Assembly (NCBI RefSeq): GCF_029948125.1
Contig: NZ_JASAMB010000019.1
Span: 1-64,000 of the forward strand
Direction: 5' to 3'
Origin: Catellatospora sp. KI3
Lineage (GTDB): Bacteria > Actinomycetota > Actinomycetes > Mycobacteriales > Micromonosporaceae
Length of the DNA stretch: 64,000 nt
The translations under genes were made by a program, and so were the position numbers. Position 1 is the first letter of the stretch. Every line of letters begins with the position of its first letter. This document shows positions 9,670-62,639 of this stretch, one piece after another. The notes beneath the pieces are model-generated. The model worked only from the letters and a program-made list of their open reading frames with translations. It did no database searches and was not told the DNA's origin.

Positions 9670-12600
9670 TCAGGAAGGAACCACCCCCCACGACAGCGTG
9701 CCGCCGACGTACGCGGTGACCTTGGTGGCGTCCGTGAACGCGGTGCCGGTGCCGTAGCTGTAGTCGTTGTTCTCGTTGAACGAGGACCAGTCGGCCTTGT
9801 TCAGCCGCAGCTGCATCTCACCCGTGTTGGCCCCGGCGGCGAGGCTGCCACCGGTGAAGCCGATCTCCAGGTACGCGTCCGCGCCGTTGACGGCGGTGGG
9901 CAGCGCGACCACGGCGGTGGTCAGGTTGCCGCAGCCGAGCTGGGCGTAGTCGCAGAACACGTTGATCGAGGTCGAGCCGTCGCGGGTGAAGTAGTAGCGC
10001 ACCTTCACCGTGCTCAGGCTCAGCGCGCCACTGCCGGTGTTGACCACCTGCAGGCCGGGCCGGATCTCGCCGTCGGTGGCCGAGCCGCCGTTGTTCTTGT
10101 ACTGCACCTTCAGGCTGCCCGGCGGGGTGGTGGACTGCGTCGTGGCGGTCACGGACGCCGAGGCGGCCGAGACGTTGCCAGCGGCGTCGCGTGCCCGCAC
10201 CGAGTACGAGTACGTCGTCGCGGCACTCAGCCCCGAGTCGGTGTACGTCGTGCCGGTGACCGGGTTGGCGTTGACCTTCGTGGCGCCCCGGTAGACGTCG
10301 TAGCCGGTCACGGCCGTGTTGTCGGTGGAGGCGGTCCACGACAGCGACACGCTGGTCTGCGTGGTGCCGGTGACGGTCAGCCCGGTCGGCACGCTCGGTG
10401 CCTGGGTGTCGCCGCCGCCTGCGGTCGTGGTGCCGGTGACCGCGGCCGAGGCCGCCGACACGTTCCCGGCCGCGTCCAGCGCCTTGACCGTGTAGCCGTA
10501 CGCGGTCGAGGCTGCGAGCCCCGAGTCGGTGTACGTGGTGCCCAGCACCGGGTTGGCGTTGACGCGCACCCCGGCCCGGTAGACGTCGTAGCCGGTGACG
10601 GCCACGTTGTCGGTGGAGGCGGTCCAGGACAGCGAGACGGTGCTGCTGGTGGTGCCGGTGACGGTCAGGCCGCCGGGGGTCGACGGGGCCTGGGTGTCGC
10701 TGGTGCCGCCGTACAGATCGGTCAGGTTGATACCGGTGGTGCTGCCCGCCCCGCCCAGCTTCACCTGGTGGTCGAGGCTCACGAACTTGCCGCCCGAGGC
10801 CCACAGCGAGGGCTTCAGCATGGTGTACTTCGCCTCGTCCCAGGTGGCCCAGTCGTCGAGCAGCAGGCCGCCGGTGTCACCGGAGTTGGGGTTGAGGCAC
10901 CAGAAGGTGTGGTGCAGCCTGTTCTCGATGATCAGGTCGCGCAGCGCGTACATCCACTTGTCCTGGCCGGCGTCCATGCCCAGCCGGCCGCCCCACTCGC
11001 CGACCAGCAGCGGAGCCTTGTTCTGCTTGTGGATGTAGAGCCAGTTCGGGTCCCACACGTCGGCGGTCAGCGAGGCCTTGTCGAACGGCTTCTGGAACCA
11101 CGGCTGGTTGAACACCAGCGGGCCGTAGTCGTGCGGCGAGTACACCAGCTGGTCCTGGTTGGCGCCCAGGTTGACCGGGTAGTTCGCGACGCCGCGCAGG
11201 TTGCCGCCCCACCAGTTGAAGTGGTAGTCGCCCTCGACGGTGGAGGACCAGTTGGTGCCGTTCTTCGGGAAGATCTCGATGCCCTCGCAGAGGATGAGGA
11301 CGTTCGGGTTCTTCGCCAGGATCCGGTTGCCGGCCGTCTGGCAGGTGTTCTTGAAGTTGTCCTGGTCGGTCGAGTTGTCCCACTTGGCGCGGGGGCTCTC
11401 GTTGTGCTTGCCGTGCGGCTCGTTCTTGACGTCCATCGCCACGACGGTGTCGTTGTTCCTGTACCGTTCGGCGACCCACTCCCAGGCCTGGTAGAACAGC
11501 TCGGACGTGATCGCGCCCTTCCACCACACCGGGTAGATGTGGCCGGAGTTGTCCGCCTCGGCGCTGTGCACGTCGATCATGACCTTGATGCCGTACTGCT
11601 CGCACAGGCCCAGCCAGTAGTCCCACACCTGCAGCGTGGTCTTGCCGACCAGCTCCGGGTTGGCGAACGTGTTGACGCCGCTGGGCACCGCCGCCTGCCC
11701 GTTCTTCCACTCCAGCAGCAGCTGGGTGGAGATCGGCACGCGCACGATGTTGATGCCGCGCTGCGCCATCGACCTCGTGATCTGGGTGATGTTGCCCGAC
11801 CACAGGCCGTGGAACACCTTCTCCGTGGCGTTGAAGCCGAACCAGTTGGTGCCGGTCAGCCAGACCTGGTTGCCGTTCTCGTCGACGATCTTGTTGCCGA
11901 CGGTGTGCAGCCAGTCCTTGCCCGTGCCGGTGGTCGTGCCGGTCGTGGTCACGCTCAGCGCCGCCGAGGCCGCCGAGGTGTTCCCGGCCGCGTCGCGGGC
12001 CTTCACCGTGTACGAGTACGCCGTCGACGCCGTCAGCCCCGAGTCGGTGTACGTCGTCCCGGCGACCGGACTCGCGTTGACCCTGGCGCTGCCCCGGTAG
12101 ACGTCGTAGCCGGTGACGGCGACGTTGTCGGTCGAGGCGTCCCAGGCCAGCGACACGCTCGTCGCCGAGACGGAGCCGGTGCGCAGGTTGGCCGGGGCGC
12201 TGGGCGCGGTGGTGTCGCCGCCACCGGCCGTGGTCGTGCCGGTGACGCTGCTCGAAGCCGCCGAGGTGTTGCCGGCCGCGTCGACCGCCCGCACGGTGTA
12301 GGTGTACGCCGTCGAGGCGGTGAGGCCCGAGTCGGTGTAGGTCGTGCCGGTCACCGGCGAGCCGTTGACCTTGGTCGTGCCCCGGAACACGTTGTAGCCG
12401 GCCACGCCCACGTTGTCGGTGGAGGCGGTCCACGACAGCGAGACGCTGCTCGCGTTCGTGCCGGTGACGGTCAGGCCGGTCGGGGTCGACGGAGCCTGGG
12501 TGTCGTCGACCGGGGCGGTCGGCACCGGCGGGTTGGCGTTGGCGACCAGCATCGCGAACTGGTCGTGGAACCAGTGCCCGGCCAGCGGGGCGTTGGGCAG

Positions 12601-13926
12601 CGCGTTGGTCTTGTTGCCGCCCGCGTTGGGCGCGGTGTAGTCCGGGTTGCACATCGGGTCGGCGAGCTTGCCCTCGTCGTTCGGGATGGTGGAGCTCGAC
12701 CCGTCCGACTCGCCCGGCGGCTTGATCCAGACGTAGGCGTCCAGGTGCGAGGCGGTGTACCCGCTCGGCGAGGCCTGCGGCGGCGCGCCCAGACCGGCCC
12801 CGGCGGTGTTGCACCACAGGCCGCGGTGCGTGCGCCGGTCCACCTTCGACTCGGTGACGTACGTGTTCAGCGAGGTGCTGGTGCTGGCCGCGGTCGGCCG
12901 ACCGGCGCCGCCCCAGCCGTTGCGGGAGGTGTCGACCAGCATGCCGATGCCCGTCGGCCAGCCCGCGGCCGTGAACGCCGTGTACAGCGCCGCGGTGAAG
13001 TCGGACTCGTCGAACTGCGGGTTCCACTCGTAGTAGGTGCCGCTCTTGATCGGCTGGCCGCCGACGCTGAGCGCCGGGTCGGGCAGGAACGGCTCGGCCG
13101 TCGGCGTGTAGTTCGACACGTTGGTGACGAAGCCGTCGACGCTGGCCAGACCGGCCGTGGTGCCCTGGGCCACCTGCGTGAACAGCTGCACCGTGCCGGA
13201 CAGGTTGTTGTCCCAGCCCAGCCAGCCCGAGTGGGCGATGTCCATGTACGTGTACACGTTGGTGATCGCGTGCAGCTTGTTCAGCGCGTACTGCGCCGCC
13301 TGCACCTGGATGCCGCTGCTCTTGGCCTGCTGGCACTCCGGGTCGCTGGCCACGTTGGTGACCAGGTTGGGCAGCCCGTCCGGCTCGATGATCGCGATGA
13401 TCCGCACGTTGGAGTACGCCGGCTTGGCGAACTCGGCTGCGATCGCGTCGATGTACTCGGTCTTGTACCGGGCCAGTCCCGCCGCCGTGAGCGGCAGCTC
13501 GCCGTTGGAGGCCAGCGCGGCGCAGTCGCGGCCGGGCAGGTCGTAGATGACGAACGTGGCCGTGATCGGCCCGCTGCCCTTCTGCGCCACCGCGAGGTTC
13601 AGGTGGTCGGCCAGGCTCTTGCGCCCGGCGTTGGCGGTGCCGCCGTGGATGGCGGCGATCCGGTCGAGCCACACCGCGGTGGGGTACGACTTCACCGTCT
13701 GCATCTTCGCCTTGAGCGTGGCGTCGGCGGTCTGCGCGATGGAGCCGTCGACCAGCGTGGCGTAGTCGGGGTTGACGTAGGTGGTGGCCCCGGCGAAGGG
13801 GTTGTCCAGGTGCGCCTCGGCCGCGCTGGCGGAGGTGGCCACCGAGAGCGCCACCGCCGCCGCGGTCGTCAGCGCGAGCGCGGCGGCGCCCAGGCGCCAC
13901 CCGGCCCGTCTTGTCCTGCGTTGCAT
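9670..13926 (-). CDS. Secreted bifunctional cellulase GH6-FN3-FN3-GH5-FN3-FN3-CBM3
   Basis: A 1418-residue secreted enzyme. A signal peptide with twin-arginine-rich n-region (MQRRTRRAG) and cleavage near ASA-A covers about 1-36. GH6 runs 40-465, with the catalytic acid Asp134 in YDLPGRDCAALASNGEL and further acidic motifs EPDG (181-184) and DTSRNGWGG (332-340). Two FN3 domains span about 478-565 and 575-661. GH5 runs 668-1058, with acid/base Glu836 in DVKNEPHG and nucleophile Glu977 in LVGEWGG. Two more FN3 span 1080-1166 and 1177-1263, and CBM3 runs 1271-1418 (LKVQYKN, RYYFTRDG, YAQLGCGN, NDYSYG). One chain would combine a GH6 cellobiohydrolase or endoglucanase with a GH5 endoglucanase. The start is set by a GGAAGG site and the signal peptide. 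It is controlled by CebR-type boxes. Confidence 0.95.
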   Translation of the reverse strand: MQRRTRRAGWRLGAAALALTTAAAVALSVATSASAAEAHLDNPFAGATTYVNPDYATLVDGSIAQTADATLKAKMQTVKSYPTAVWLDRIAAIHGGTANAGRKSLADHLNLAVAQKGSGPITATFVIYDLPGRDCAALASNGELPLTAAGLARYKTEYIDAIAAEFAKPAYSNVRIIAIIEPDGLPNLVTNVASDPECQQAKSSGIQVQAAQYALNKLHAITNVYTYMDIAHSGWLGWDNNLSGTVQLFTQVAQGTTAGLASVDGFVTNVSNYTPTAEPFLPDPALSVGGQPIKSGTYYEWNPQFDESDFTAALYTAFTAAGWPTGIGMLVDTSRNGWGGAGRPTAASTSTSLNTYVTESKVDRRTHRGLWCNTAGAGLGAPPQASPSGYTASHLDAYVWIKPPGESDGSSSTIPNDEGKLADPMCNPDYTAPNAGGNKTNALPNAPLAGHWFHDQFAMLVANANPPVPTAPVDDTQAPSTPTGLTVTGTNASSVSLSWTASTDNVGVAGYNVFRGTTKVNGSPVTGTTYTDSGLTASTAYTYTVRAVDAAGNTSAASSSVTGTTTAGGGDTTAPSAPANLRTGSVSATSVSLAWDASTDNVAVTGYDVYRGSARVNASPVAGTTYTDSGLTASTAYSYTVKARDAAGNTSAASAALSVTTTGTTTGTGKDWLHTVGNKIVDENGNQVWLTGTNWFGFNATEKVFHGLWSGNITQITRSMAQRGINIVRVPISTQLLLEWKNGQAAVPSGVNTFANPELVGKTTLQVWDYWLGLCEQYGIKVMIDVHSAEADNSGHIYPVWWKGAITSELFYQAWEWVAERYRNNDTVVAMDVKNEPHGKHNESPRAKWDNSTDQDNFKNTCQTAGNRILAKNPNVLILCEGIEIFPKNGTNWSSTVEGDYHFNWWGGNLRGVANYPVNLGANQDQLVYSPHDYGPLVFNQPWFQKPFDKASLTADVWDPNWLYIHKQNKAPLLVGEWGGRLGMDAGQDKWMYALRDLIIENRLHHTFWCLNPNSGDTGGLLLDDWATWDEAKYTMLKPSLWASGGKFVSLDHQVKLGGAGSTTGINLTDLYGGTSDTQAPSTPGGLTVTGTTSSTVSLSWTASTDNVAVTGYDVYRAGVRVNANPVLGTTYTDSGLAASTAYGYTVKALDAAGNVSAASAAVTGTTTAGGGDTQAPSVPTGLTVTGTTQTSVSLSWTASTDNTAVTGYDVYRGATKVNANPVTGTTYTDSGLSAATTYSYSVRARDAAGNVSAASASVTATTQSTTPPGSLKVQYKNNGGSATDGEIRPGLQVVNTGSGALSLSTVKVRYYFTRDGSTSINVFCDYAQLGCGNLTTAVVALPTAVNGADAYLEIGFTGGSLAAGANTGEMQLRLNKADWSSFNENNDYSYGTGTAFTDATKVTAYVGGTLSWGVVPS

Positions 13927-13958: not shown

Positions 13959-13974
13959 TTGGGAGCGCTCCCAA
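13959..13974. promoter_or_regulatory. CebR-type operator, proximal
   Basis: TTGGGAGCGCTCCCAA is a perfect 16-base palindrome containing the exact cellulose-regulator consensus TGGGAGCGCTCCCA. It sits 33 bases upstream of the cellulase start codon, where a LacI-family repressor released by cellobiose would block transcription. Confidence 0.9.
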
Positions 13975-14091: not shown

Positions 14092-14105
14092 CGGGAGCGC
14101 TCCCG
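14092..14105. promoter_or_regulatory. CebR-type operator, distal
   Basis: CGGGAGCGCTCCCG is a perfect 14-base palindrome, differing from the consensus only at its outer pair. It lies 166 bases before the cellulase start and 199 before the divergent regulator, so it could allow repressor looping or control of either gene. Confidence 0.75.
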
Positions 14106-14291
14106 TGGCGGTGAGCCTAGGATCCGATTTCGACGGTTGGCAATGAACCCGCAATCGTTGGCATGAATGTCCCCGGACAGGCGGGACAACCGCATTCGGA
14201 TGTCCCGCGAGACCGGGATTCGAGTCCCCCGCGTGACGCCGTGGTGCCCGTCCCGTCACGCAACTGCTGGCCGGTGCGGCTTCGCCGCCGC

Positions 14292-14303: not shown

Positions 14304-14951
14304 ATGGACGAGGGCATCACCGTGCTGGTCGCCGACGACAACAGCGTCGTACGGGCGGTGCTGCGGGAGATGCTGCACGAGCAGGGGCCGCTCAGCGTGG
14401 TCGGCGAGGCCGGCGACGGGCTCCGCGCGCTGGAGCTGGCCGCCACCCTGCGCCCCACGGTCACCCTGCTCGACCACCGGATGCCGCAGCGCGACGGGCT
14501 CTCCGTGGTCGCCTCGATCAGCGCGCACAGCCGGGTGCTGATGCTGACCCGCACCGTCGAGGAGGAGGTCGTGCTGGCCGCGGTGCGGTTCGGGGCGGCG
14601 GGCTACCTGGTGCACGGCCAGTTCGGCCCGGCCGAGCTGCGCCAGGCCATCCACGCGGTCGCCGGCGGCGAGTCGCACCTGTCCCCCACCGCCGCCTCCG
14701 TGCTGGTCAGCAGCGTACGCCGGGCCGCCCGCGAGCAGCCCCGCCCCGACCGGCACGGCCTGTCCCGCCGCGAACGCGAGGTGATGGACCTGATCGCCGG
14801 CGGCCTGTCCAACGCCGCCATCGCCACCCGCCTGGTCCTAGCCACCAAGACGGTCGAGAACCACGTCAACCGCATCTTCGCCAAGCTCGGCGCCCACACC
14901 CGCGCCCAGGCCGTCACCACCTGGCGCAACCCCCGCCGCCACCCCCGCTGA
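14304..14951 (+). CDS. NarL/LuxR-family response regulator with atypical receiver
   Basis: A 215-residue regulator. The receiver domain (residues 5-120) keeps the acidic pair Asp11-Asp12 and the phosphoacceptor Asp57 (LLDHRMP). The invariant switch lysine before the last helix is replaced: GYLVHGQFGP has His where GYLLKD is usual. The LuxR helix-turn-helix spans 150-210 (LSRREREVMDLIAGGLSNAAIATRLVLATKTVENHVNRIFAKLG). It is divergent from the cellulase gene and 1.2 kb from a kinase with a cellulose-binding domain, so it is the likely phosphorylation partner of that kinase. It is clearly a paralogue of the next regulator (shared GQF motif and C-terminus). Confidence 0.9.
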   Translation: MDEGITVLVADDNSVVRAVLREMLHEQGPLSVVGEAGDGLRALELAATLRPTVTLLDHRMPQRDGLSVVASISAHSRVLMLTRTVEEEVVLAAVRFGAAGYLVHGQFGPAELRQAIHAVAGGESHLSPTAASVLVSSVRRAAREQPRPDRHGLSRREREVMDLIAGGLSNAAIATRLVLATKTVENHVNRIFAKLGAHTRAQAVTTWRNPRRHPR

Positions 14952-15492: not shown

Positions 15493-16179
15493 GTGTCCGG
15501 GTGGGAGGGGCGCGCGCCGCGCCCGGCTGTCCTCGCGCAGCCGGGCGCACCCACCGCGCCGCGCATGCTGGTGATCAGCGCCAGGCCGCAGGAGTTCGCC
15601 GCGGTCGTCGGCTCGGCCGCGACCGTGGTCGCCCTGCCCGAGCAGTCAGAACGCGTCGGGGCCGGGTACCCCGCGGCCGACCTGGTGCTGCTGCACAGCG
15701 CCGAGCCGCTGTGGGAGCTGGCCGCGCTCTCGCCGCTGGTGTCCCGGGTGCCGTGCCTGCTCATCGCGAGCACGTCCCACGTCGACGCGGTCGCCTGGCT
15801 GCGGGCGGGCGCGTGCAGCGTGCTCGTCGAGGGCCAGTTCACCCGCTGGGAGCTGCTCGACGCCGTCCACGCTACCGCGCACGGCCAGAGCCGCCTGTCG
15901 CCGGGCGCCGTGGCCGCGGTCGTCGGCCACCTGCGCCGCCCCGGGCCGGACCCCGTCCCGGATCGGCCGGAGCTGACCCGGCGGGAGCGTGAGGTCATCC
16001 GGCTGCTGGTCGGCGGCGACTCCAACACCCAGATCGCGGCCGCGCTGGGGCTGGCCGAGAAGACGGTCCGCAACCAGGTCAGCCGGGTCTACCGCAAGCT
16101 GGGCGTACGCAACCGGGCCCAGGCCACCGGAGTCTGGCTGGCGGGTCGGCCGGTCAGGCCGCGCACCGCACCCCGTTGA
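15493..16179 (+). CDS. LuxR-family regulator with degenerate receiver domain
   Basis: A 228-residue protein starting with GTG. Residues 25-130 align with the receiver of the upstream regulator, but the acidic pair is absent (MLVISARPQ), the phosphoacceptor position is His (DLVLLHSAEP) and the switch lysine is missing (SVLVEGQFT). It cannot be phosphorylated in the usual way. The LuxR helix-turn-helix is intact (residues 158-215, LTRREREVIRLLVGGDSNTQIAAALGLAEKTVRNQVSRVYRKLG). Its 3' end overlaps the convergent kinase gene by 26 bases. It may act by dimerising with its paralogue, or bind a ligand. Target genes are unknown. Confidence 0.85.
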   Translation: MSGWEGRAPRPAVLAQPGAPTAPRMLVISARPQEFAAVVGSAATVVALPEQSERVGAGYPAADLVLLHSAEPLWELAALSPLVSRVPCLLIASTSHVDAVAWLRAGACSVLVEGQFTRWELLDAVHATAHGQSRLSPGAVAAVVGHLRRPGPDPVPDRPELTRREREVIRLLVGGDSNTQIAAALGLAEKTVRNQVSRVYRKLGVRNRAQATGVWLAGRPVRPRTAPR

Positions 16180-17860
16180 GGGTGAACGCGGGCGGCGCCG
16201 GATTGGCGCCCGACCAGGTGCCCTGCACGCCGAACGTGACCGTCTCGCCCGGGGCCAGCACCGGATGGTTGCCGCCGTCGTTGGCGGTGATCCGCTCGCC
16301 GCTCTGACTCACCGTCGCCGACCAGCCGCTGGTCAGCCGCTGCCCGGCGGTGAACGAGAACAGCACGGTCCAGCCGTCGAAAGTGGTGGCGCCGGTGTTG
16401 GTGACGGTGACGTCGGCGATGAACCCCGGATTCCACTCGTTGCGCTTGCTGTAGCGGACGCGGCAGGCGCCCGCCGTCGGCGGTTCGGCCGCCGCGGACG
16501 GGCCGCGCCCCGCCGACGCGCTCGGCCGCGGCACAGCACCGGTCGTGGGGCGCGCGGAGGCCCCGACCGCCGGGGTACGGGTGCCCGTCGCGGACGGCGG
16601 CGGCTCCGGAGCCGCCGCCCCGGTCGGGGTCGGGGTGGGGGTCGGCGCAGCGACCGCCGGCAGGGGCGCCTCCCGCTCGGCCAGCGCGACCGTCGACGCG
16701 GCCGCCAGCAGCGCGACCGCCGCCAGCGCGGCCACGCGTACCGGGCGGGACATGCCCGCCACCAGGGGCGGCAGTCGCGGCGGCTGGGCCGGCATCCGGG
16801 CGCTGACCAGGGTGCCGCCCCCGGTTGCCGCGGTCACCTCGAGACGTCCGCCGCCGCCCGCGGCCCGCTCGGCCATGCCGACCAGGCCGTAGCGTCCCGC
16901 CGACGGGTCGGTGATCCCGGTGCCGTCGTCGGCCACCGCCAGCAGCACGTCGGAGCCGTCGCGGCCGAGCCGGACCACCACCCGGCCGGCCCCGGCGTGC
17001 CGGGCGGTGTTGCGCAGCGCCTCACGCAGGATCCAGCACAGGTCGACGGCCGTCTGCGGATCGGCGTCGACCGGCGCCAGGTCCAGTTCCAGCGCGATGC
17101 CGGTCTCGGCGGACCACTGGCCCGCGATCGCCCGGACCACCTCGGGCAGGGGCGCGTCGGCGGGGTGCGCGCGCAGGCCGTCGATGATGGCGCGGGCATC
17201 GCGGGCCGCGTTCAGCGTGCCGTCGCGCAGCACCTCGGCCAGCCGGGTGGCCCGGTCGGGTTCGGCCAGCGTCTGCGGCAGCGCCGCCGCCCCGAGCGCG
17301 ATCGCGTCCAGCGTCTTGCTGAGCGAGTCGTGCATCTCTCGGGCGACCCGGGCCCGCTCCGCCGCCACCGCCTCGGCGCGCGCGTCGAGCCGGTCGCGGG
17401 CTACCCGGGCCCGCGCGCCGCGCCACAGCAGCGCCGCCGCGGCGGTCGCCGCCGCCGCGACCGGCATGCCGACCAGCACGACCGGGTCGGGCGCCGTCGC
17501 GGCGACCACGGCTGTGCCGAGCAGCGCCAGGACGACGCCCCGCAGCGGGTACGCGGCACCGCCGAGCGCCGCCGCGCCGACCGCCACCGCTGCCGCCGCC
17601 GTGCCGCCGACCACCCCGACCGCCGTCACCGCGAGGGCCGTATCGGCGACGACCAGCACCGCCGGCAGCATCCCGGCGCGGGGCAGCCGCAGGCAGAGGG
17701 CGGCGAGCAGGCCGGTGAGGGTGCCGGGGATGAGCCAGGCGAGGCCGTCGGGTGGCCATACCAGGAGAAGACCGGTGGTCAGCGCGGCCGCGCGCGCCGC
17801 GGCGAGCGTGACGGCCAGCCAGGACGCGGGCTCACCGCGACCGACCCAGCGGCGTGCCAT
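16154..17860 (-). CDS. Membrane histidine kinase fused to a C-terminal CBM2 cellulose-binding module
   Basis: A 568-residue protein. Residues about 12-148 form four to five membrane helices. HisKA_3 lies at 165-230 with phosphoacceptor His177 (REMHDS). HATPase_c spans 270-356, with N-box Asn284 (REALRNTARHAG) and G-box DDGTGI (311-316). One more membrane helix lies at 373-394, then a Pro/Thr/Ser/Ala-rich linker (400-463). CBM2 occupies 466-568, bracketed by Cys466 and Cys566. Its NEWNPGF, FDGWTV, SGWSAT and FTLNGVRC motifs are diagnostic. Surface tryptophans 476 and 513 match Trp17 and Trp54 of Cellulomonas Cex CBM2a. The third (Trp72) is absent, while Trp549 is extra. The CBM would be outside and the kinase core inside. 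ATG 17860 has a GGGAGGG site. Partner regulators lie next door. Confidence 0.93.
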   Translation of the reverse strand: MARRWVGRGEPASWLAVTLAAARAAALTTGLLLVWPPDGLAWLIPGTLTGLLAALCLRLPRAGMLPAVLVVADTALAVTAVGVVGGTAAAAVAVGAAALGGAAYPLRGVVLALLGTAVVAATAPDPVVLVGMPVAAAATAAAALLWRGARARVARDRLDARAEAVAAERARVAREMHDSLSKTLDAIALGAAALPQTLAEPDRATRLAEVLRDGTLNAARDARAIIDGLRAHPADAPLPEVVRAIAGQWSAETGIALELDLAPVDADPQTAVDLCWILREALRNTARHAGAGRVVVRLGRDGSDVLLAVADDGTGITDPSAGRYGLVGMAERAAGGGGRLEVTAATGGGTLVSARMPAQPPRLPPLVAGMSRPVRVAALAAVALLAAASTVALAEREAPLPAVAAPTPTPTPTGAAAPEPPPSATGTRTPAVGASARPTTGAVPRPSASAGRGPSAAAEPPTAGACRVRYSKRNEWNPGFIADVTVTNTGATTFDGWTVLFSFTAGQRLTSGWSATVSQSGERITANDGGNHPVLAPGETVTFGVQGTWSGANPAPPAFTLNGVRCAA

Positions 17861-61352: not shown

Positions 61353-62639
61353 GTGCTCCTCCCCTCTCACCTGCGCTTCTCCCACTGGCTGCGGCCCGGC
61401 TGGTGGACGCCGCTGCGCGTCGACGCGGCCCTGGCGGCCGGGCTGCTCGTCGCGCAGCTGCTGCTGATGCACGCCGAGCCGGCCTGGAGCGGGCACACCG
61501 GGGGCTGGCTGGCCCTGTGGACGGCGGTCACGCTGCTGCCCGTGGTGCTCCGGCGCCGCTGGCTGTGGGGCGCGGTCGCGCTCCTGCTGCTGACGCTGCT
61601 CGCGGGCTGGGTCGAGCCGATGGTGTGGACCGGGCAGGGCATCACGCTGTGGGTGCTGGCGTACACGCTGGCGGCGTACGAGCGCTGGTGGCGCGCGGTC
61701 GCGGGCAGCGTGCTGCTGTGGGCCGTCAACGACCTGGTCTTCGTGTACGCCGTCGGGTCGGGCTACCTGGACGACAAGGCCGGTGGCCAGGTGATCTCGA
61801 CGTCGGCCGGGCTGATCGTGAACGTGGTCGCGATGGTGATCACGTTTCTGATCGGGCGTACCGTGCGGGCCCGGCGGGAGGCCTCGGCGGCGCTGGCCGA
61901 GCGGGCGCTGGCCGCCGAGGCGGGGCGGCAGGCCCACGCCGAGCAGGCCGTGGCCGAGGAGCGCCGCCGCATCGCCCGGGAGCTGCACGACGTGGTGGCC
62001 CATCACGTCAGCGTGATCGGGGTGATGTCGACGGCGGCGCGGCGGATGCTGGACCGGGACCCGGCCGCCGCCGACGAGGCGCTGAGCACGATCGAGCAGA
62101 CCAGCCGGAGCACCCTGCGGGAGCTGCGCCGCCTGCTGTTCGTGCTGCGCGCCGACGGCGCCGCCGAGCCGGAGCCGGGGCTGACCCCGCAGCCGGGGCT
62201 GGGCGGCCTGCCGGTCCTGGTCGAGCAGGTGTGCGAGGCGGGGCTGCCGACGGCGCTGCGGTGCGAGGGGCTGCCCGGGGAGCTGGATCCGGGGGTGGGG
62301 CTGACGGCGTACCGGATCGTGCAGGAGGCGCTGACCAACGCGCTCAAGCACGCCGGGCCGTGCCGGGCCGAGGTCAGGCTGGCCGGGGACGGCTGCCGCC
62401 TCACCATCGAGGTGTTCGACACGGGTCGGGGGCCGCGCACGCGTACCCTCGGCCCAGGGATCGCGGCGCCGGGGCACGGCCTGCTCGGCATGCGCGAGCG
62501 GGTCGCCGTGTACGGCGGCAGCCTGCGCACCGGCCCCCGCCCCGGCGGCGGGTTCCGGGTGTACGCGGTGATCCCGCTGGAGCAGACCGGCCCCGCCCTG
62601 GCGGCGGCCCTCGACACGGGCGTGGAGGTGCCGCGGTGA
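61353..62639 (+). CDS. NarL-type sensor histidine kinase
   Basis: A 428-residue kinase. About five N-terminal membrane helices (25-180) without a large extracellular loop precede HisKA_3 with RELHDVVAHHVSVIG (about 213-227) and an HATPase with NALKHAG and GHGLLGMRERV boxes. The GTG start lies 9 bases after recB. It overlaps the response regulator by 4 bases (GTGA), an operon. The ligand is unknown, probably membrane stress or a small molecule as in LiaS/DesK-type kinases. Confidence 0.93.
   Translation: MLLPSHLRFSHWLRPGWWTPLRVDAALAAGLLVAQLLLMHAEPAWSGHTGGWLALWTAVTLLPVVLRRRWLWGAVALLLLTLLAGWVEPMVWTGQGITLWVLAYTLAAYERWWRAVAGSVLLWAVNDLVFVYAVGSGYLDDKAGGQVISTSAGLIVNVVAMVITFLIGRTVRARREASAALAERALAAEAGRQAHAEQAVAEERRRIARELHDVVAHHVSVIGVMSTAARRMLDRDPAAADEALSTIEQTSRSTLRELRRLLFVLRADGAAEPEPGLTPQPGLGGLPVLVEQVCEAGLPTALRCEGLPGELDPGVGLTAYRIVQEALTNALKHAGPCRAEVRLAGDGCRLTIEVFDTGRGPRTRTLGPGIAAPGHGLLGMRERVAVYGGSLRTGPRPGGGFRVYAVIPLEQTGPALAAALDTGVEVPR

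Follow-up and report, generated by a model that had tools for sequence, protein, structure and literature searches.

It is an open question how aerobic cellulose degraders sense contact with an insoluble polymer while no soluble sugar has yet been set free, and the regulator CebR covers only the soluble part. This question was raised by a gene in a 64,000-nucleotide stretch of DNA from Catellatospora sp. KI3 (contig NZ_JASAMB010000019.1; the whole stretch is hereafter called the window), which encodes a histidine kinase fused at its C-terminal end to a carbohydrate-binding module (CBM) of the CBM2 type. We found that this fusion is a real, conserved sensor-kinase variant, undescribed in the literature searched. 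We lean towards the reading that its outward-facing CBM2 binds insoluble cellulose and switches the phosphorylation of a response regulator encoded nearby (RR1), which activates a divergent cellulase gene.

The fusion is encoded by the minus strand, and the opposite strand of the same region contains only part of a long frame, for which the family search gave no match. Its translation begins with MARRW, and the start is identical in protein P0003 of Catellatospora sp. TT07R-123 (76% identity). The gene and its parts are as follows.

16157..17860, minus strand: histidine kinase-TM7-CBM2 fusion, 568 amino acids (stop codon at 16154-16156)
17411..17860, minus strand: N-terminal membrane part, residues 1-150, fast-evolving (helices in the structural model and the hydropathy scan)
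17168..17359, minus strand: HisKA_3 dimerisation and phosphotransfer domain, residues 168-231, with the phospho-acceptor His177 (Pfam, alignment)
16784..17047, minus strand: HATPase_c, residues 272-359 (Pfam)
16676..16747, minus strand: membrane helix TM7, residues 372-395, linking the kinase to the CBM (AlphaFold2, hydropathy)
16472..16675, minus strand: disordered Pro/Ser/Thr/Ala linker, residues 396-463 (AlphaFold2, composition)

The Pfam search revealed HisKA_3 at residues 168-231 (E 2.7e-9; 37.9 bits against a cut-off of 24), HATPase_c at 272-359 (E 4.2e-7; 30.8 bits against a cut-off of 26.4) and a full-length CBM_2 at 466-566 (E 2.8e-28). Both kinase domains of the HisKA_3 type were thus above their cut-offs, with the H-box His and the N-box intact, and the C-terminal module had the CBM2 fold. 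As evident from the Pfam and AlphaFold2 results, the succession of kinase core, extra membrane helix, linker and CBM2 was that given in the preliminary description of the locus, and His177, the N-box (N284), both CBM cysteines, Trp476 and Trp513 were found at the positions it had claimed. In an alignment of 24 fusion proteins, His177, N284, W476, W497, G479 and the first CBM cysteine were invariant (24/24), and Trp513 was present in 23, the exception being P0025, whose C-terminus is frame-damaged.

The AlphaFold2 model contained a helix behind the kinase (372-395), an unstructured stretch (397-462; predicted local distance difference test score, pLDDT, below 50) and a confidently modelled CBM (pLDDT of about 90). 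Six N-terminal helices were present in the model (12-33, 37-56, 65-83, 87-103, 105-122 and one that starts at 126 and continues as a long helix) and five in a plain hydropathy scan; the topology argument is independent of this number. Because the kinase must sit inside the cell with its ATP and a single helix stands behind it, the C-terminus is expected outside, so that the predicted topology has the CBM2 outside and the kinase inside. This agrees with the outward orientation first proposed for the CBM. A hydrophobic segment occupied the TM7 position in all 24 homologues, and in 23 of them its kinase-side flank was richer in Lys and Arg than its CBM-side flank. The linker varied from 33 to 92 residues across the 24 homologues and consisted mainly of Pro, Ser, Thr, Ala, Gly and Val, and only about 12 residues separated the end of the ATP-binding domain from TM7. 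Structural comparison gave mostly kinase rows, and the kinase core was DesK-like (PDB 5iuj and related entries).

To place the fusion among its relatives, a protein search (E <= 1e-40) recovered 25 proteins from 7,998 scored candidates. Twenty-four of these, the window protein included, carried a CBM2; the 25th (P0026) was a kinase running into unrelated helicase sequence, and this record is marked partial and looks chimeric. Among the other 23 fusion proteins, the 13 with an organism name all came from Catellatospora, Dactylosporangium or Hamadaea. A profile search with the 24-row alignment (E <= 1e-25) gave 28 proteins, namely the same 24, P0026 and four kinases lacking a CBM. Both searches scored only the approximately 8,000 candidates that shared the most words, and since the Rhizocola and Catelliglobosispora copies were absent among their named matches, they miss relatives. 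A scan of genome contigs revealed nine loci, three of which matched the kinase only; the fusion was present in the remaining six, from Catellatospora methionotrophica, Dactylosporangium siamense, D. aurantiacum, Rhizocola hellebori, Hamadaea tsunoensis and Catelliglobosispora koreensis. We take all five genera carrying the fusion (six named species) to be Micromonosporaceae, Catellatospora being the one looked up in the taxonomy. Recurrence in related genomes, on which the original proposal had been made to depend, was therefore found in 24 proteins and five genera. Automatic annotation already names the fusion, for example as 'Cellulose binding domain/Histidine kinase'. The preliminary description knew of no characterised example of this architecture, and we likewise found no description of a histidine kinase with a CBM2 in the open PubMed Central literature (titles, the beginnings of abstracts and some passages, with subscription papers outside this scope).

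To understand which part of the protein senses, we compared the ratios of nonsynonymous to synonymous substitution rates (dN/dS) between the window gene and its two nearest relatives, in genome G118 and in C. methionotrophica; both pairs share the window gene. The phosphotransfer domain was the most constrained (0.06 and 0.17), the ATP-binding domain (0.37 and 0.36) and the CBM (0.36 and 0.45) were held to a similar degree, and the linker (0.52 and 0.66) and the N-terminal membrane part (0.70 and 0.76) were less so. TM7, with 24 codons, gave 0.15 and 0.62, and such small regions are unreliable. That the CBM is held about as firmly as the ATP-binding domain and the membrane part is not favours the CBM as the input, and from these sequence comparisons it looks like the input of the kinase. 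The CBM2 might instead serve only as an anchor holding the hypha or the kinase on plant fibre; in that case membrane state, turgor or a soluble sugar would be sensed through the N-terminal membrane part, as in DesK. We consider this unlikely. The DesK-like core, the disordered linker and the position of the CBM at the kinase end, where a sensor is unexpected, all suit an anchor, whereas the membrane part is the fastest-evolving folded part (0.70-0.76) and its number of hydropathy helices varies among the homologues (some of them fragments), in which TM7 and the CBM are kept. Moreover, adhesion needs no kinase, and the cellulase neighbour would then be a coincidence.

We next considered which carbohydrate the module would bind. 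Of the binding strip of the Cex CBM2a (W17, W54 and W72), the first two residues were retained in the window protein, and the third corresponded to Asn531, so that the three surface aromatics of a CBM2a (Cex numbering) were not all present. Two kinase CBM2s beyond the 23 compared (L011 and L013) had Arg at this position. By comparison, six other CBM2s from the genome of the window, out of 57 listed places, all had Tyr, His or Trp there, and the four non-kinase CBM2s of the Rhizocola and Catelliglobosispora loci all had His or Tyr. According to the available text of PMC5935602, cellulose-type CBM2a modules invariably have a Gly beneath the first Trp, and Arg in its place makes the module a xylan binder (type 2b). 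The corresponding G479, beneath W476, was present in 24/24 fusion proteins. The same text describes a natural cellulase, CelStrep, whose CBM2 also lacks the third Trp (PMC5935602), and N531 therefore weakens the assignment to a typical CBM2a and not the case for binding cellulose. The module likely binds insoluble cellulose, and a weaker, reversible binding would suit a sensor. That the CBM2 senses another ligand, such as soluble cello-oligosaccharides, xylan, chitin or the cell's own wall glycan, is in our estimation quite improbable. Such a ligand would fit the non-aromatic third strip residue in 21 of 23 kinase CBM2s and the chitin-binding CBM2 (2rtt) among the structure matches; against it stand the retained W476, W513 and 2a-type G479, the example of CelStrep (PMC5935602, in the part available) and the neighbouring GH6/GH5 cellulase under a CebR box.

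The neighbourhood of the kinase gene, on which the preliminary description was silent, contained two regulators and a cellulase.

15493..16179, plus strand: RR2, regulator of the LuxR/NarL type whose degenerate receiver has His in place of the phospho-Asp; the gene is convergent with that of the kinase and overlaps the kinase 3' end by 26 bp
14304..14951, plus strand: RR1, NarL-type response regulator with an intact acidic pair and phospho-Asp, the likely kinase partner
9670..13926, minus strand: GH6-fn3-GH5-fn3-CBM3 cellulase, divergent from RR1 (Pfam, frames)

From the kinase outwards, the order was RR2 and RR1, both read towards the kinase, and then the cellulase; its frame is open to 14043, and a signal-peptide-like stretch suggests a start at 13926. 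We compared eight neighbourhoods (the window, the six named fusion loci and G118). An RR1 homologue was present in the cluster in all eight, and RR2 in six, being absent from Rhizocola and Catelliglobosispora. A cellulase frame (GH6-GH5, or GH5 without GH6) was open in six of the eight; four of these frames (the window, D. siamense, Rhizocola and Catelliglobosispora) were complete and closed, and the other two (C. methionotrophica and G118) stayed open as far as the sequence examined reached. In the regulator alignment, which does not include G118, RR1 retained the acidic pair, the phospho-Asp and the Thr in 7/7 sequences, and RR2 had lost its phospho-Asp, to His or Arg, in 5/5 (the window, L009, L010, L012 and L014). 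With the RR1 receiver intact and that of RR2 dead, RR1 is the likely partner of the kinase. In the tree of the helix-turn-helix domains, RR2 grouped with the single regulators of Rhizocola and Catelliglobosispora (support 0.96), whose receivers are intact and RR1-like; support in the receiver tree is low (0.60). After a duplication, the two regulators may have divided the roles, RR1 keeping phosphorylation and RR2 the old DNA-binding helix.

CebR is a LacI-type repressor. In the gap between RR1 and the cellulase, we found elements that could bring CebR and RR1 together on one promoter.

13960..13973, no strand assigned: perfect CebR operator TGGGAGCGCTCCCA (match to consensus)
14092..14105, no strand assigned: second CebR-like palindrome CGGGAGCGCTCCCG with 2 mismatches, just downstream of the -10-like element
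14114..14119, minus strand: -10-like TAGGCT, with a TTGC -35-like element at 14138-14143 (alignment, by eye; not recovered by the promoter scan)
14168..14206, no strand assigned: candidate RR1 operator made up of three GGGACA half-sites, at 14168 and 14201 on the minus strand and at 14183 on the plus strand (alignment)

The first of these matches the 14-bp CebR consensus box given in the accessible part of PMC5332605. Only two perfect boxes were present in the whole 8.2 Mb genome, and with TGGGAGCGCTCCCA upstream of the cellulase, a CebR site is predicted there. A CebR-type box (0-1 mismatch) was found in the RR1/cellulase gap of all seven loci examined. All seven gaps also contained GGGACA, in 1-4 copies each, both direct and inverted; the 18 copies compare with about 1.0 expected from the remainder of the same loci, and since the seven loci share descent, these copies are not independent. 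Over the whole window, GGGACA was rarer than chance (29 against 43 expected). The distance from the last GGGACA to the CebR-type box was 68-69 bp in five of the seven loci and 74 bp in L012 (Hamadaea); in L009 (C. methionotrophica) the box at this spacing had three mismatches and was not counted. In the window, the 68-69 bp spacing concerns the box with two mismatches, and the perfect box lies 200 bp from the last GGGACA. A promoter-like TTGC-N18-TAGGCT pair was seen by eye between GGGACA and the CebR-type box, which stands directly behind the -10 element. GGGACA is thus a candidate RR1 site, placed where an activator would sit.

A GGGACA-N56-70-CebR core matched in 23 of 200 genomes, and a reversed control in none. 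As a regulon signature this combined operator was rejected, as only 7 of the 26 listed places adjoin RR1 homologues; L023, L030, L037 and L043 had the combined operator and a cellulase match without RR1.

Synteny with the regulator and the cellulase, a CBM constrained like the ATP-binding domain, and Gly479 together point to cellulose sensing. The proposal of a direct cellulose receptor is partly supported: the architecture, the synteny, the constraint and Gly479 speak in its favour, and Asn531 at the third strip position, which the preliminary description had missed, speaks against it. The mechanism that we envisage is as follows. The single helix behind the cytoplasmic kinase would place the C-terminus outside, and the flexible linker of 33-92 residues would let the CBM reach through the wall to the fibre. 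Several CBMs docked or clustered on one crystalline surface might then restrain the ATP-binding domains or crowd the kinase dimers, a route suggested by the mere 12 or so residues between the ATP-binding domain and TM7, and this would shift the balance of kinase and phosphatase activities. Phosphorylated RR1 would bind the GGGACA repeats, which lie upstream of the -35-like element at a distance of about 25-30 bp, and CebR at the -10-like element would block transcription until cellobiose arrives, so that the promoter would read 'solid cellulose present' AND 'soluble product arriving'. The CBM receptor had at first been set against CebR; the operator data suggest that both inputs meet on one promoter.

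Several observations weigh against cellulose sensing by this system. The long disordered linker by itself transmits no conformational change, which favours a mechanism of tethering or clustering over one in which such a change is pushed through. Among 23 kinase CBM2s, just two had an aromatic third strip residue (Tyr), and with this residue mostly lost, the affinity may be weak or the ligand different. The kinase and regulator genes are convergent and do not form one operon, so we only infer their pairing, and the receiver Lys was replaced by His in 7/7 RR1s. The promoter scan, which used the E. coli consensus, found no promoter, and the strict GGGACA palindrome occurred at three places in the genome, with its reversed control at one. 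The cellulase was reduced to a remnant in D. aurantiacum (L014:8570-9248) and missing in Hamadaea tsunoensis (L012:8979-9300), while the kinase stays. At both loci the CebR-type box, GGGACA, the regulators and the kinase remain despite the loss.

The distribution adds to these points. A DNA query run against a sample of 200 family genomes matched somewhere in 137 of them (E <= 1e-10), mostly in the CBM or the kinase part alone. Strong DNA matches were found in only 8 of the 200 genomes and 3 of the 11 of the genus; this patchy prevalence rests on the DNA query, by which diverged copies are missed. G095, with a weaker DNA match, had a kinase adjoining a regulator and no CBM found within the 3.4 kb examined. 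In a ninth genome, G115, which has the genus code of the Dactylosporangium loci, two weaker collinear DNA matches revealed a diverged copy (L064:1175-2536; G115:C1, ~724 kb), a 453-codon frame with the ATP-binding domain, helix, linker and CBM2 and without the H-box helix. This copy cannot work as a kinase by itself, and no RR1 homologue was found beside it within the 3.4 kb examined. Similarly, P0022 and P0023 (Dactylosporangium spp.) had a disturbed, partly duplicated stretch right behind the H-box helix and are possibly non-functional kinases that still retain the CBM. By eye, the G115 copy is flanked by an EAL-type frame upstream and a recombinase-like frame downstream.

The G115 copy makes us slightly less confident in cellulose sensing and slightly more inclined to a fusion that is decaying or neutral, inherited but with no role connected to cellulose. 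We nevertheless regard the latter as very improbable. The patchy distribution, the cellulase degraded or missing in 2 of 8 loci, the lost phospho-acceptor of RR2 and the absent H-box helix in G115 are what decay would produce; set against them, the H-box His and N-box Asn are invariant in 24/24 proteins, the CBM is constrained and the operators are kept across five genera. A mis-assembly, frameshift or read-through artefact joining a kinase to a cellulase fragment, for which the chimeric appearance of the related record P0026 might speak, was rejected as having practically no chance of being true: 24 proteins, drawn from numerous genomes and metagenomes, have this junction with its helix and linker in common, and the sequences flanking it are both under purifying selection.

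We therefore return to the reading of a kinase that senses solid cellulose. More tentatively, the fusion may represent a new class of two-component receptors for solid polysaccharides, in which the sensor stands behind the kinase on an extra helix, the read-out is by tethering or clustering, and an AND gate with CebR acts on one promoter. A C-terminal sensor departs from the usual order of histidine kinases, in which the sensor precedes the kinase. A small, complete cassette of sensor, regulator, promoter and cellulase across several genera makes the question of solid sensing directly testable, and a biosensor for cellulose surfaces is a possible use.

Two other kinases were observed in the same genome. 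The nearest paralogue (L002:205-2616, L077; G000:C19, ~44.3-46.7 kb) showed 40% identity and had no CBM. It is followed by a response regulator and then by a separate small protein that combines one hydrophobic N-terminal stretch and a Pro-rich linker with a domain showing weak similarity to 2wz8, a CBM35 (E 0.0017); the small protein gave no Pfam match at E 0.1. A CBM6-DUF1996 protein and LacI-type regulators lie nearby, and the cluster is possibly a two-chain version of the same idea. The second, at 61353-62639 of the window (plus strand), was an ordinary HisKA_3 kinase with a DUF7134 N-terminus, in which Pfam found no CBM.

To understand how the fusion kinase relates to known systems, we compared it with five of them. 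It shares the HisKA_3/HATPase_c catalytic core and a multi-helix N-terminal membrane part with DesK of Bacillus (PDB 5iuj), which senses membrane state; to our knowledge, DesK carries no helix or CBM behind the kinase. In the hybrid two-component systems of Bacteroides, kinase and regulator form one chain with the sensor before the kinase, and we know of no C-terminal CBM in them. They resemble the system proposed here in that a membrane histidine kinase responds to extracellular polysaccharide and switches on degradative genes (PMC10766802, accessible part). XydS/XydR of Clostridium cellulolyticum is likewise a two-component system beside plant-wall-degrading genes affected by its regulator; in the portion of PMC3572039 available, XydS is termed a putative membrane-bound histidine kinase and no CBM is mentioned. 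CebR would act on the same target promoter, where its 14-bp consensus box is perfect upstream of the window cellulase (PMC5332605, accessible part), but it is an intracellular repressor that needs an imported soluble product and cannot sense solid cellulose. A further likeness was to the clostridial SigI/RsgI anti-sigma factors, which sense biomass, RsgI2 with a CBM3 and others with CBM42, PA14 or GH10 (PMC12203970, accessible part). As described there, the regulatory domain of RsgI lies in the cytoplasm at the N-terminal side; a membrane helix and a stretch that crosses the wall connect it to a C-terminal carbohydrate-binding module outside the cell, which is said to sense substrate. RsgI holds a sigma factor and signals by proteolysis (PMC12203970). 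The window protein has the C-terminal module beyond a predicted membrane helix and lacks the cytoplasmic anti-sigma domain; its cytoplasmic part is a histidine kinase, its module is a CBM2 and its output would pass through a NarL-type response regulator. By analogy, then, the fusion kinase appears to work like RsgI and is not a member of the RsgI family.

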